Of a stretch of 64,000 nt of DNA, positions 4,845-53,619 are shown piece after piece; within the stretch, counting starts at the first letter, position 1; each line of letters opens with the position of its first letter. Source of the DNA: Natronococcus sp. A-GB1 (GTDB lineage Archaea > Halobacteriota > Halobacteria > Halobacteriales > Natrialbaceae); contig NZ_JARUKW010000014.1 in the NCBI RefSeq assembly GCF_029688845.1, positions 62,001-126,000 of the forward strand. The letters are read 5' to 3'. The notes beneath the pieces were generated by a model. The model had not been told where the DNA came from and ran no database searches. It saw nothing but the letters and a program-made list of their open reading frames with translations. A program made the position numbers and the translations under genes.

Positions 4845-4915
4845 GGGACCGTGGGGTAGTGGTATCCTCTGCGGATGGGGTCCGTAGGACCCGAGTTCAA
4901 TTCTCGGCGGTCCCA
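4845..4915 (+). tRNA. tRNA-Pro (anticodon GGG)
   Basis: A complete 71-nt cloverleaf. Acceptor GGGACCG (4845-4851) pairs with CGGTCCC (4908-4914), with discriminator A at 4915 and no encoded CCA. The anticodon stem TGCGG/CCGTA closes the loop ATGGGGT, giving U33 and anticodon GGG. The T-arm is CCGAG-TTCAATT-CTCGG. There is no intron. GGG reads the proline codons CCC and CCU. Confidence 0.97.
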
Positions 4916-28578: not shown

Positions 28579-28605
28579 CGGAGCGTGAACGAAGTGAACG
28601 CTCCG
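28579..28605. repeat. inverted repeat overlapping the tRNA-Glu 5' end
   Basis: CGGAGCGT (28579-28586) and ACGCTCCG (28598-28605) are perfect complements with an 11-nt loop. The right arm includes the first bases of the tRNA-Glu acceptor stem, so the precursor could form an alternative hairpin that competes with tRNA folding. Confidence 0.4.
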
Positions 28606-50954: not shown

Positions 50955-51261
50955 CCAAGCAGATATCTGGCAAATTCTGTCCGTTCCGGTTTGACAATCG
51001 AACCCACACCGGGAGAACAGTTATGTCAGTTCCGGGGGACGATACGATCGACGATGACCTCGACCGCACCACTCGCTCGCTCCCGCTCGAGTTCGTCCCT
51101 CGAGAACGGGAGCATCGGGTCCTATCGTGGACTCGCAGGCGGTGGTCGCGAACGAGGTGGCTGACGGCTCTCGACGCCCCGTCCGCGCCGCGCGTTCGCG
51201 CCGGCCGGACGGTTCGTTTTCCACGTCGAATCTCCGGCCAGCGCGAACTGCGCGGGGATCG
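50955..51261. other. intergenic, no convincing gene
   Basis: 307 bp. An 82-codon frame from 51023 begins acidic but becomes Arg-rich, so I do not call it. The GC content returns to the chromosomal level from about 51040 on. Confidence 0.45.
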
Positions 51262-51334
51262 CCCCCCGTAGTGTAGCCGGCCAACACGCGGACCAGTTCG
51301 GTTCGAACCTCGAGTTCGACCCTCGACGGGGGCC
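51262..51334 (+). other. cryptic tRNA-like cloverleaf (possible tRNA pseudogene)
   Basis: 73 nt that fold as a cloverleaf. Acceptor CCCCCCG/CGGGGGC has 6 of 7 pairs. U8 and A9 are present. The D stem GTGT/ACAC encloses AGCCGGCCA (A14, G15, G18G19, A21). G26 and A44 are present. The anticodon stem CGGAC/GTTCG encloses CAGTTCG. The variable loop is 4 nt, and T-arm TCGAG-TTCGACC-CTCGA is perfect. The formal anticodon would be GTT (Asn), but position 33 is A, not the invariant U, and the first acceptor pair is C-C. The D-arm resembles the tRNA-Glu at 28600. A pseudogene or non-canonical RNA is more likely than a working tRNA. Confidence 0.4.
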
Positions 51335-51336
51335 TC

Positions 51337-51666
51337 ATGAATCGACCAGCACCGTCGCTCGAGACGAGGCTGACCGTCCGCGTCCCGCTGGGAGCCTCGG
51401 GTAGCCTCGTCGACGGCGCCACGGCGACCCTCGAGCGAGTCGACGCCATCGACCGCGTCGACACTATCGACGTCGCCGGCGTGTCGCCCGGGCTCAACGA
51501 CACCGCCGCTGACTGTCGGGTCCGGCTCGAGCTCGTGGATCCGATCGACGACGACGTCGCGAAAACAGCCCTCGAGGACGGCGTCGGTATCCTCGAGGTC
51601 GAATCCGTTGCTCCGGTCAAGAACGGAACCGCCGAGCGAGCTGTCCTCGAGGCGGAACAGGGGTGA
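51337..51666 (+). CDS. conserved-looking haloarchaeal protein of unknown function
   Basis: A 109-residue acidic protein beginning two bases after the tRNA-like element. Strand-helix pattern: ETRLTVRVPLGASGSLVDGA, AIDRVDTIDVAGVSPGLN, CRVRLELVDPIDDDVAKTAL and a final VGILEVESVAPV. This is consistent with a small beta-alpha-beta fold. Composition and GC3 fit a real gene, but I do not recognise the family. It converges on the Rad25-like helicase, whose stop is 9 bp away. Confidence 0.6.
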   Translation: MNRPAPSLETRLTVRVPLGASGSLVDGATATLERVDAIDRVDTIDVAGVSPGLNDTAADCRVRLELVDPIDDDVAKTALEDGVGILEVESVAPVKNGTAERAVLEAEQG

Positions 51667-51675
51667 GTCCTCGAC

Positions 51676-53619
51676 CTACTCCTCCTCGTTGGTCTCCGCC
51701 GAGTCGACGTTCTGCTCGCGGACCGTGATCCCCTTCCGGCCGAGGTGCTGGAGCTGTCGGCGGGCGAACTCCTCCTCGCGGGTACCGCGAGTAGCGAGCA
51801 CGTAGACGAGCGCCCCGCCCGCGGGTCGCATCGTGCGGCCGGCCCGCTGGGTCCCCTGGCGGCGCGAGCCCCCGAGCCCGGAGGCGACGATCGCCATGTC
51901 GGCGGTCGGGAGGTCGATCCCCTCGTCGCCCACCCGGGAGATCACCAGCAGGTCGCGCTCGTCGCGGCGGAACTCCTCGAGCAGCCGGCGGCGCTCGTGG
52001 TGGGGCGTCTCGCCGCTGAGGAAGGGGACGTCCAGCGCGTCGGCGATCTCGCGGCCCTGCTCGAGGTAGTCGACGAACACCAGCGACTTCGCGCCGGGAT
52101 GCGAGGAGAGCAGGTACCGCACCTCGTCGATCTTCCCCCGGTTCTGGGCGGCGATGCGGTACTTTTCTCGTCCTTCGGCGGAACCGTAGGCGTTGCCTTG
52201 CTCGTCGTCGCCCCACGGTACGTAGCGGATCTCGAGTTCCGGCTCGGCGACGAAGCCGGCGTCGAACAGCGCCTCCCAGTCGGTGCCGATCGGCGGGCCG
52301 ACGAGGGTGAATATCTCTTTCTGACGGTCGTCCTCCCGGATCGGGCTCGCCGATAGCCCGAGGCGATGCCGGGACTGGAGGTGCGTGCTCCGCCGGTAGA
52401 TGTCCGAGGGAACGTGCTGGCACTCGTCGAACACGACGAGTCCCCACTCGCGGTCGTCGAACAGCGAGCGGTGGCGATCCATCCCCGCGATCTGGTAGGT
52501 GGCGATCGTCACCGGCCGCACGTTCTTCTGGCCGCCGTGGTACTGGCCGATCTGGTGGGGCTCGAGCGAGGTGTACTCCTCGATCGTCTCGGCCCACTGA
52601 CGCGCCAGGTCGCGACTCGGCACGAGCACGAGGGTCTCGCCGCCGACGTGGGTCATCGCACCCATCGCGGCGACGGTCTTGCCGCTGCCCGGCGGCCCGA
52701 CGAAGACGCCCTCGCCGGCCTCGGCGAAGCGGTCGACCCACTCGCGCTGGTAGTCCCGGAGCGAGACCTCGAGGTCGATCTCGAGCTCCTCGCCGGACTC
52801 GAGGTCGCGGTGGTCCTGGACCGGGTAGCCCGCCTCGTACAGAATGCGCTTGATCGCGGCCTCGGCTCCCTCGCGGACCCAGTCCTCGGTCTCGGAGATG
52901 GGGGCGTGAACGTGTTCCTCGTCGAGCTTCTGACGGGCGACGTTGCCCATGATCTCCGGCGTCTGGGCCTCGAGCACGGTGTAGCCGTCCTCGTGGGTCG
53001 CGAGCCGGAACTGGTGGGCCCGATCCCAATGGCTCTCGACCCAGTCCTCGAGGTCCTCGTTGCGCTGGCCGAGCGCCTGGCGCATCGTTCGGGCCAGCTC
53101 CTCGAAGGAGTCGTGGGGCGTGCTCCAGACGTCCTCCGGTCGGACGACGTAGCGGTACCCCTGCTCGCCGTTGCCGTCGGCGAGGTGGGCGAACTGTGAG
53201 AGCTGCGCCCGCGTAAACTGGTCGGGCCGATCGACGATAATCTCGCGGCGCTTCGGAAACACGACGACGCGCTCGCGGTCGGTGAGGTCCTCGAGCTCGC
53301 TGGGGTACCAGACGACGGGGTCCGTCGAGACCGAGAGACGCTCGAGGTCGCCCCGGTCGGCGAGGGTCTCGAGTCGGTCACTGGCCTCCTCGTGGGGGAT
53401 CTCGAGGGCGCGGGCGACGGCGGCCGCGGTGAGCACGGGCGCCCCCTCGCGCTGGGAGGCGTCGTGGAACTCCGCGATCGTCGGCTCCTCGCTCCCTGCC
53501 TCGAGGTCCGTCGGTTCCCCGTCGACCGCTCGGTCGGAGGCGTCGCTCCCTCTGGACGGCTCGTCGGTCACCTCGCTCTCGGTACCGTCGTCGGCGTCGA
53601 TCGAGGAGTGGTCGGTCAC
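51676..53619 (-). CDS. rad25: Rad25/XPB-like DEAH-box helicase
   Basis: A 647-residue superfamily 2 helicase. After an acidic leader (1-60) come a winged-helix-like part (about 60-105) and a damage-recognition-like region. The helicase core has LRDYQREWVDRFAEAG, Walker A GPPGSGKTVA, motif II VFDECQHVP (DECQ rather than DEAH), motif III LSASPIRED, motif IV-V KSLVFVDYLEQGREIA and VGDEGIDLP, and motif VI QRAGRTMRP. Archaeal XPB homologues open DNA for repair or transcription and can pair with the nuclease Bax1, which is not adjacent here. Confidence 0.92.
   Translation of the reverse strand: MTDHSSIDADDGTESEVTDEPSRGSDASDRAVDGEPTDLEAGSEEPTIAEFHDASQREGAPVLTAAAVARALEIPHEEASDRLETLADRGDLERLSVSTDPVVWYPSELEDLTDRERVVVFPKRREIIVDRPDQFTRAQLSQFAHLADGNGEQGYRYVVRPEDVWSTPHDSFEELARTMRQALGQRNEDLEDWVESHWDRAHQFRLATHEDGYTVLEAQTPEIMGNVARQKLDEEHVHAPISETEDWVREGAEAAIKRILYEAGYPVQDHRDLESGEELEIDLEVSLRDYQREWVDRFAEAGEGVFVGPPGSGKTVAAMGAMTHVGGETLVLVPSRDLARQWAETIEEYTSLEPHQIGQYHGGQKNVRPVTIATYQIAGMDRHRSLFDDREWGLVVFDECQHVPSDIYRRSTHLQSRHRLGLSASPIREDDRQKEIFTLVGPPIGTDWEALFDAGFVAEPELEIRYVPWGDDEQGNAYGSAEGREKYRIAAQNRGKIDEVRYLLSSHPGAKSLVFVDYLEQGREIADALDVPFLSGETPHHERRRLLEEFRRDERDLLVISRVGDEGIDLPTADMAIVASGLGGSRRQGTQRAGRTMRPAGGALVYVLATRGTREEEFARRQLQHLGRKGITVREQNVDSAETNEEE

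Follow-up and report, generated by a model that had tools for sequence, protein, structure and literature searches.

In the haloarchaeon Haloferax volcanii, t-elements are substrates of both RNase P and tRNase Z, according to PMC4326828, which cites Hoelzle et al. (2008, 2012) for the t-element that stands before the 5S rRNA. At this t-element tRNase Z makes the 5' end of the 5S rRNA, as described in PMC4326828 and PMC4946936. Archaeal tRNA-like processing signals are known in this 5S rRNA precursor and have served as laboratory tools. The element studied here lies in a 64,000-nucleotide stretch of DNA from Natronococcus sp. A-GB1 (the window), and is most likely a known kind of element in a new and conserved use at an mRNA. 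It resembles the Haloferax t-element in being a haloarchaeal tRNA-like structure directly 5' of an RNA whose 5' end it would define. It differs in that it precedes a protein-coding gene and abuts the start codon, in that its cleavage is a prediction, and in that it is conserved class-wide at one gene family. Mitochondria offer another comparison: in their tRNA punctuation, excision of tRNAs releases mRNAs. Excision would likewise free an mRNA at the window locus, but the excised part would be a degenerate tRNA mimic rather than a working tRNA, and it stands before a single archaeal gene.

Two further systems touch this locus through paralogs of the downstream protein, whose family is called A1 here. 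TROVE is present in 20 of 29 archaeal tRNA clusters according to Morgado and Vicente 2019 (PMC6333295), and a diverged A1 paralog stands behind a tRNA gene beside TROVE in such clusters; no mention of the A1 family was found in the available text of that paper. These clusters differ from the window, where a single degenerate element stands without a tRNA array or a TROVE gene. The bacterial YrlA Y RNAs that go with Ro60 (PMC7790460) are also tRNA mimics, and the A1 paralogs provide the link to Ro60. Unlike them, the window element is in cis to an ORF, and a TROVE search of its genome gave no match, leaving it without a Ro60 gene. A described case of a tRNA-like element conserved at one mRNA was not found in the literature, where the Haloferax set was covered through the papers that cite it. 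If the reading proposed below is true, the locus is a natural and testable case of tRNase Z making an mRNA start, it explains the origin of some near-leaderless mRNAs that have no promoter at their AUG, and it gives a first lead for the unnamed A1 family, linked via its paralogs to Ro60 and tRNA arrays.

Reading of the element in the window

The element extends from the acceptor 5' strand to discriminator base 73 (51262..51334, + strand), as delimited by direct reading, ARAGORN, the model R1 described below and the relatives. Read directly on the + strand, it consists of the acceptor 5' strand CCCCCCG (51262..51268), T8, A9, the D-arm GTGT-AGCCGGCCA-ACAC (51271..51287), G26, the anticodon arm CGGAC-CAGTTCG-GTTCG (51289..51305), AACC, the T-arm TCGAG-TTCGACC-CTCGA (51310..51326), the acceptor 3' strand CGGGGGC (51327..51333), which pairs with the acceptor 5' strand, and C73 (51334), followed by TC (51335-51336) and by the ATG from 51337. 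The discriminator and the predicted two-nucleotide mRNA leader UC (together 51334..51336) were assigned from the leader pattern across 111 homologous loci. Twenty of the 21 pairs form: six of seven in the acceptor, four of four in the D stem, five of five in the anticodon stem (one of them G-U) and five of five in the T stem. The sequence-only reading had reported the tRNA consensus bases U8, A9, A14, G15, G18G19, A21 and G26, a TTCGA T-loop, 20 of 21 pairs, an A at position 33, a C-C first acceptor pair and an end two bases 5' of the ATG, and direct reading bears out each of these.

The T-arm, D-arm and acceptor of the element follow the consensus of an elongator tRNA. Its positions off tRNA rules are the outermost, C-C acceptor pair, A33 (51295) and C37 (51299), where a functional elongator has U33 and a purine at 37. 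ARAGORN labels 51261-51336 as tRNA-Asn(gtt), after the anticodon GTT; a functional tRNA-Asn is ruled out by A33, C37 and the variable anticodon loop. The Rfam tRNA model gave no match at the locus even at E=10, so the element falls short of the threshold for a functional elongator, and over the whole genome the same model recovered 44 real tRNAs, none of them at the element. The MFE fold of the element is the cloverleaf, but its z is -0.35 against shuffled sequences. Over 103 elements the median folding-energy z is -1.8, and folding energy was set aside as support because it is uninformative in GC-rich DNA.

A T-arm, acceptor and ATG of comparable kind occur in one further case in the 64 kb window. 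Given the weak Rfam and folding signals and this one comparable coincidence per 64 kb, the evidence from a single genome is suggestive and goes no further. The Rfam score at background and the similar coincidence would also suit a chance resemblance in GC-rich, TCGA-rich DNA. That reading is hardly tenable once relatives are considered, since it is contradicted by 111 of 123 homologous loci with different but paired sequences in the same place.

Conservation of the paired structure across haloarchaea

Upstream DNA was compared at 123 non-redundant homologous loci, the comparison with related genomes that the sequence-only reading had proposed. Paired structure is kept at the ATG in 111 of them, from eight haloarchaeal families, where a T-arm and a 7-bp acceptor end 1-5 nt 5' of the in-frame ATG of the same gene. 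The T-loop in these 111 loci is almost always TTCGANY, on a T-stem of 5 bp, and is followed by a 7-nt strand able to pair upstream. The T-stems seen include TCGAG/CTCGA, CCGAG/CTCGG, GCGCG/CGCGC, CCGCG/CGCGG, CCCGG/CCGGG and ACGTG/CACGA, and the acceptors seen include GCTCCCG/CGGGAGC, CCCCTCG/CGAGGGG, GCGCCCG/CGGGCGC, ACCGACG/CGTCGGT, GCCGGAG/CTCCGGC and GCTTCCA/TGGAAGC. As judged by this comparison, which decides the question, the cloverleaf is real.

The T-arm is the best-conserved part of the element: over the 111 loci 539 of 555 T-stem pairs are kept, against a maximum of 454 when the 3' strands were permuted 2000 times. In the acceptor, the 5' strand was picked by complementarity and raw pairing counts are therefore biased; a partner-swap control, in which 3' strands are exchanged between loci and the 5' strand is re-picked, corrects this bias. 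All seven acceptor positions pair in 41 of the 79 distinct elements, where the control gives a mean of 18.4 and a maximum of 29. The 3' strand is kept in relatives, and compensatory changes occur in four of the seven acceptor pairs of A2. Among the 18 full-cloverleaf elements, both sides have changed in 10 of the 21 pairs and 93% of cells pair; their covariation scores 0.294, and sliding the structure yields 0.101 at most. Compensatory changes are present in all four helices.

A model of the 18 full-cloverleaf elements (R1) scores the window element at 84.3 bits (E 8e-16, 51262-51339), a score that is partly by construction because this element is among the 18. The next-best R1 matches in the window are a tRNA-Glu gene at 28600 (47.1 bits) and a tRNA-Pro gene at 4845 (34.1 bits). 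Over the whole genome R1 gives four matches, which are the element, two sites where Rfam has a tRNA as well, and a weak one at E 0.01; no second full-type element was found in the genome by this search, which would miss mini-type elements. In the genomes searched, no gene outside this one family was found to follow such an element.

Many relatives of the same family retain both the D-arm and the anticodon arm; in others these arms have given way to a single hairpin or to hardly anything. Numerous orthologs are thereby mini-tRNAs, in which 16-30 nt separate the acceptor from the T-arm and the D-arm of the full-cloverleaf orthologs is lost. The middle part ranges from 14 to about 100 nt and its sequence differs, yet the element stays in its place at the ATG. 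The anticodon stem co-varies and its loop differs in length and sequence between orthologs, so that neither a constant 7-nt loop nor a constant anticodon is found, and the retained core is the acceptor stem and the T-arm. Since the D- and anticodon arms are variable or missing and the anticodon loop is variable, the element is not a decoding tRNA. When 20 relatives were scanned with the Rfam tRNA model, matches came only from L112, L113 and L028, the last from another element that follows the gene, and only the orthologs of genomes G257 and G346 reach about 59 bits among the relatives scanned.

The sequence-only reading had considered a tRNA pseudogene or an integration scar. A decaying remnant of either kind, beside an unrelated gene, would fit A33, C37 and the C-C pair, all violations of tRNA rules, and it would fit the habit of integration to target tRNA genes, which are the usual integration sites. 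We regard it as very improbable, as it is contradicted by compensatory changes in four helices, which persist from family to family and invariably beside one and the same gene. The pseudogene idea is right for the origin only; as a dead remnant it fails because the stems stay paired while the sequences change, and decay alone would not preserve pairing through sequence change. The scar is contradicted by both acceptor strands and by the D- and anticodon arms, all of which co-vary, and no integrase was found among the neighbours examined. The same reading held that a background covariance score, together with absent conservation of pairing, would count against the element. The Rfam tRNA score is indeed at background, but relatives keep the pairing.

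No element was detected in 12 of the 123 loci. At L022 the gene is truncated, the T-arm is lost and there is an apparent insertion upstream; the other members of its genus (G003, G004, G006, G007) gave no match to the gene. L029 and L030 hold cassette paralogs, which there follow a full tRNA-like gene. The Halorussus-type loci L066, L070, L074 and L076-L078, together with L025, keep the gene without a detected element, and some of these keep a hairpin that looks, by eye, like a degenerate acceptor. The gene is also kept at L100 and L110, where the element was not detected. Judging by the Halorussus-type loci and by L025, L100 and L110, some lineages can dispense with the element. At L028, a second tRNA-like element lies just behind the gene (L028:1851-1923, Rfam tRNA 61 bits, anticodon GTA) and, as far as can be judged, is unlike a normal tRNA-Tyr.

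The downstream gene, its cassette paralogs and the origin of the element

The gene that follows the element (51337..51666, + strand) encodes a small protein of 109 aa, and was assigned to family A1 by homolog searches and a family profile. Homologs of the gene are found in 31 of 61 relatives, and a search with the family profile finds 234 of 391 genomes of the class, a count that includes cassette paralogs. The product is about 100 aa long across the homologous loci. Its dN/dS is 0.53 against the nearest ortholog and 0.66 for another ortholog pair (Nei-Gojobori); the protein is fairly fast-evolving, yet its profile can be aligned across the class. Profile searches of Pfam, NCBIfam and PDB with the A1 protein gave nothing significant, and no RNA-binding domain was recognised in these searches. 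Homology to EF-1 beta, suggested by eye and by one weak NCBIfam match, was rejected, as hhalign to TIGR00489 gave at most 13% probability and a misaligned match. AlphaFold2 on a single A1 sequence gave a mean pLDDT of 38, which is unusable. A scan of genome contigs with one A1 protein found one locus, a search of viral contigs with a cassette paralog gave no match, and no phage records matched.

The convergent neighbour of the gene, on the - strand, encodes an XPB/ERCC3-like helicase (51676..53619, assigned by Pfam) and serves as context only. It recurs in several relatives, including Halostagnicola larsenii and Natrononativus plasmids. Inside the helicase gene, a match to the c-di-GMP-II-GCG riboswitch on the - strand (52329-52414, 21.3 bits against a threshold of 47.9) is probably due to chance.

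TROVE was found in 43 of 391 genomes. Twenty TROVE loci were retrieved, and in 16 of them tRNA genes come first, followed by TROVE, a further tRNA and the diverged A1-family gene. The tRNA between TROVE and the A1-family gene is Gly in 15 of these cassettes and Ala-like in one, and most of the 16 also have a tRNA-Arg at the TROVE start. The cassettes (L197-L199, L201, L203-L205, L207-L211, L213-L216) hold up to about 15 tRNA genes and occur in several haloarchaeal families, both on plasmids and on chromosomes; their A1-family protein is annotated merely as hypothetical, for example in Haloarcula halophila (P0204_RS19650). In the protein tree the stand-alone proteins group broadly by taxonomic family, and the cassette proteins make up one clade of their own (100/100).

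In G257 and G346, two genomes of one genus (loci L163 and L164), the gene stands behind a near-perfect tRNA-Glu(TTC) of 59 bits; just downstream come TROVE and several other tRNA-like genes, in an order unlike that of the usual cassette. The window element has its closest match among the tRNAs compared in a cassette tRNA-Glu(ttc), at a score of 24, against 15 for the housekeeping tRNA-Glu of the window. The earlier description of its D-arm as Glu-like agrees with this, and with tRNA-Glu as the next-best R1 match in the window. The diverged A1 clade behind a tRNA in cassettes and the closest match to a cassette tRNA-Glu suggest an origin from an operon-punctuating tRNA. Descent of the element from a tRNA that once stood before the gene in a cassette, presumably in that direction, would be the simplest story.

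Proposed release of the mRNA and other roles for the element

Comparison among genomes establishes the RNA structure and shows it to be conserved, fixed in place at the AUG and stripped of decoding features. Beyond this, we think it probable that the element is a t-element for an mRNA, at which a tRNase Z cut would free a near-leaderless message, and that it originated from a tRNA-Glu-like cassette gene. The element would be a cis-acting tRNA mimic, presumably co-transcribed with the downstream gene, whose RNA would fold as an acceptor stem stacked on the T-arm. RNase P and tRNase Z recognise tRNAs by this part, the acceptor stem on the T-arm. The predicted tRNase Z cut falls after the discriminator, between 51334 and 51335, and would leave an mRNA starting with U-AUG, UC-AUG or similar, translated as essentially leaderless with no need for a Shine-Dalgarno sequence. 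In the uncut RNA the AUG would abut a stable helix without a usable Shine-Dalgarno, so expression should depend on processing. The element is kept at the start of the gene across haloarchaea probably because tRNA-trimming enzymes cut it and free the mRNA.

The leader sequences fit this proposal. As in a t-element, the acceptor and T-arm lie directly upstream of the RNA start, as placed from the AUG, and no CCA directly follows the discriminator among the leaders listed. The leader after N73 is T in 61 of the 111 loci, TC in 26, TT in seven and one of a few other sequences in the remainder (U, UC or UU in the RNA of 94 loci). Between -15 and -4 of the ATG, 59 of the 111 loci lack any 4-mer of GGAGGTGA, 50 have a 4-nt SD-like stretch and only two have a match of 5 nt. 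Most of the cassette paralogs listed have leaders of several tens of nt and GAGGTGA, GGAGGT or GGAGATGA-type sites just 5' of the ATG. Counted against the t-element reading are the ordinary folding energy, the C-C pair of the window, the loci without an element and the 4-nt SD-like stretch in about half of the loci. A tRNA-like RNA that releases a leaderless mRNA is nonetheless the best supported of the three options in the sequence-only reading: its fixed place in 111 of 123 loci and the compensatory changes stand, while the release itself is what we infer.

The element may instead be a translational operator that is not cleaved, at which a protein that binds the tRNA elbow or T-arm controls ribosome access to the adjoining AUG, perhaps in autoregulation. 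Candidate binders are an RNA-processing enzyme, the A1-family protein that the gene itself encodes and, in genomes that have it, Ro60. The restriction to one gene family in the genomes searched would suit such an operator, as would the G-rich acceptor 3' strand adjoining the AUG with the 4-nt SD-like stretch of 50 loci, and the A1 paralogs in tRNA-array and TROVE/Ro60 cassettes hint at RNA work. We consider it rather unlikely: the part that is kept is what processing enzymes need, the 1-2 nt gap after N73 suits cleavage better, TROVE is absent from the window's genome, and the A1 protein has no recognised RNA-binding domain.

Less likely still, the tRNA-like RNA itself could be the stable product, as a Y-RNA-like or decoy small RNA, with the mRNA as its by-product. 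Bacterial Y RNAs do have tRNA-like domains (PMC7790460), and A1 paralogs sit in TROVE cassettes. Against this role, the middle of the element is variable in length and sequence while its place at the ATG is fixed, and the window's genome has no TROVE gene.

The t-element reading can be extended, tentatively, to a class-wide control device. The 5' tRNA mimic may tie the translation of one mRNA to tRNA-processing enzymes, and perhaps to binding by the encoded protein, so that the gene would sense processing capacity or tRNA damage; such a device would descend from tRNA genes that once punctuated a Ro60/tRNA-array cassette. We hold this extension to be possible and somewhat doubtful.

Two other features lie 5' of the element. 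An inverted repeat CCGTCC...GGACGG at 51179-51212, seen by eye also in several relatives, L014, L015 and L019 among them, is possibly a terminator or an additional RNA structure. A CCGGCCAGCG-like motif at 51234-51243, which recurs in many relatives about 20-40 nt 5' of the acceptor 5' strand, is possibly a promoter or leader element.
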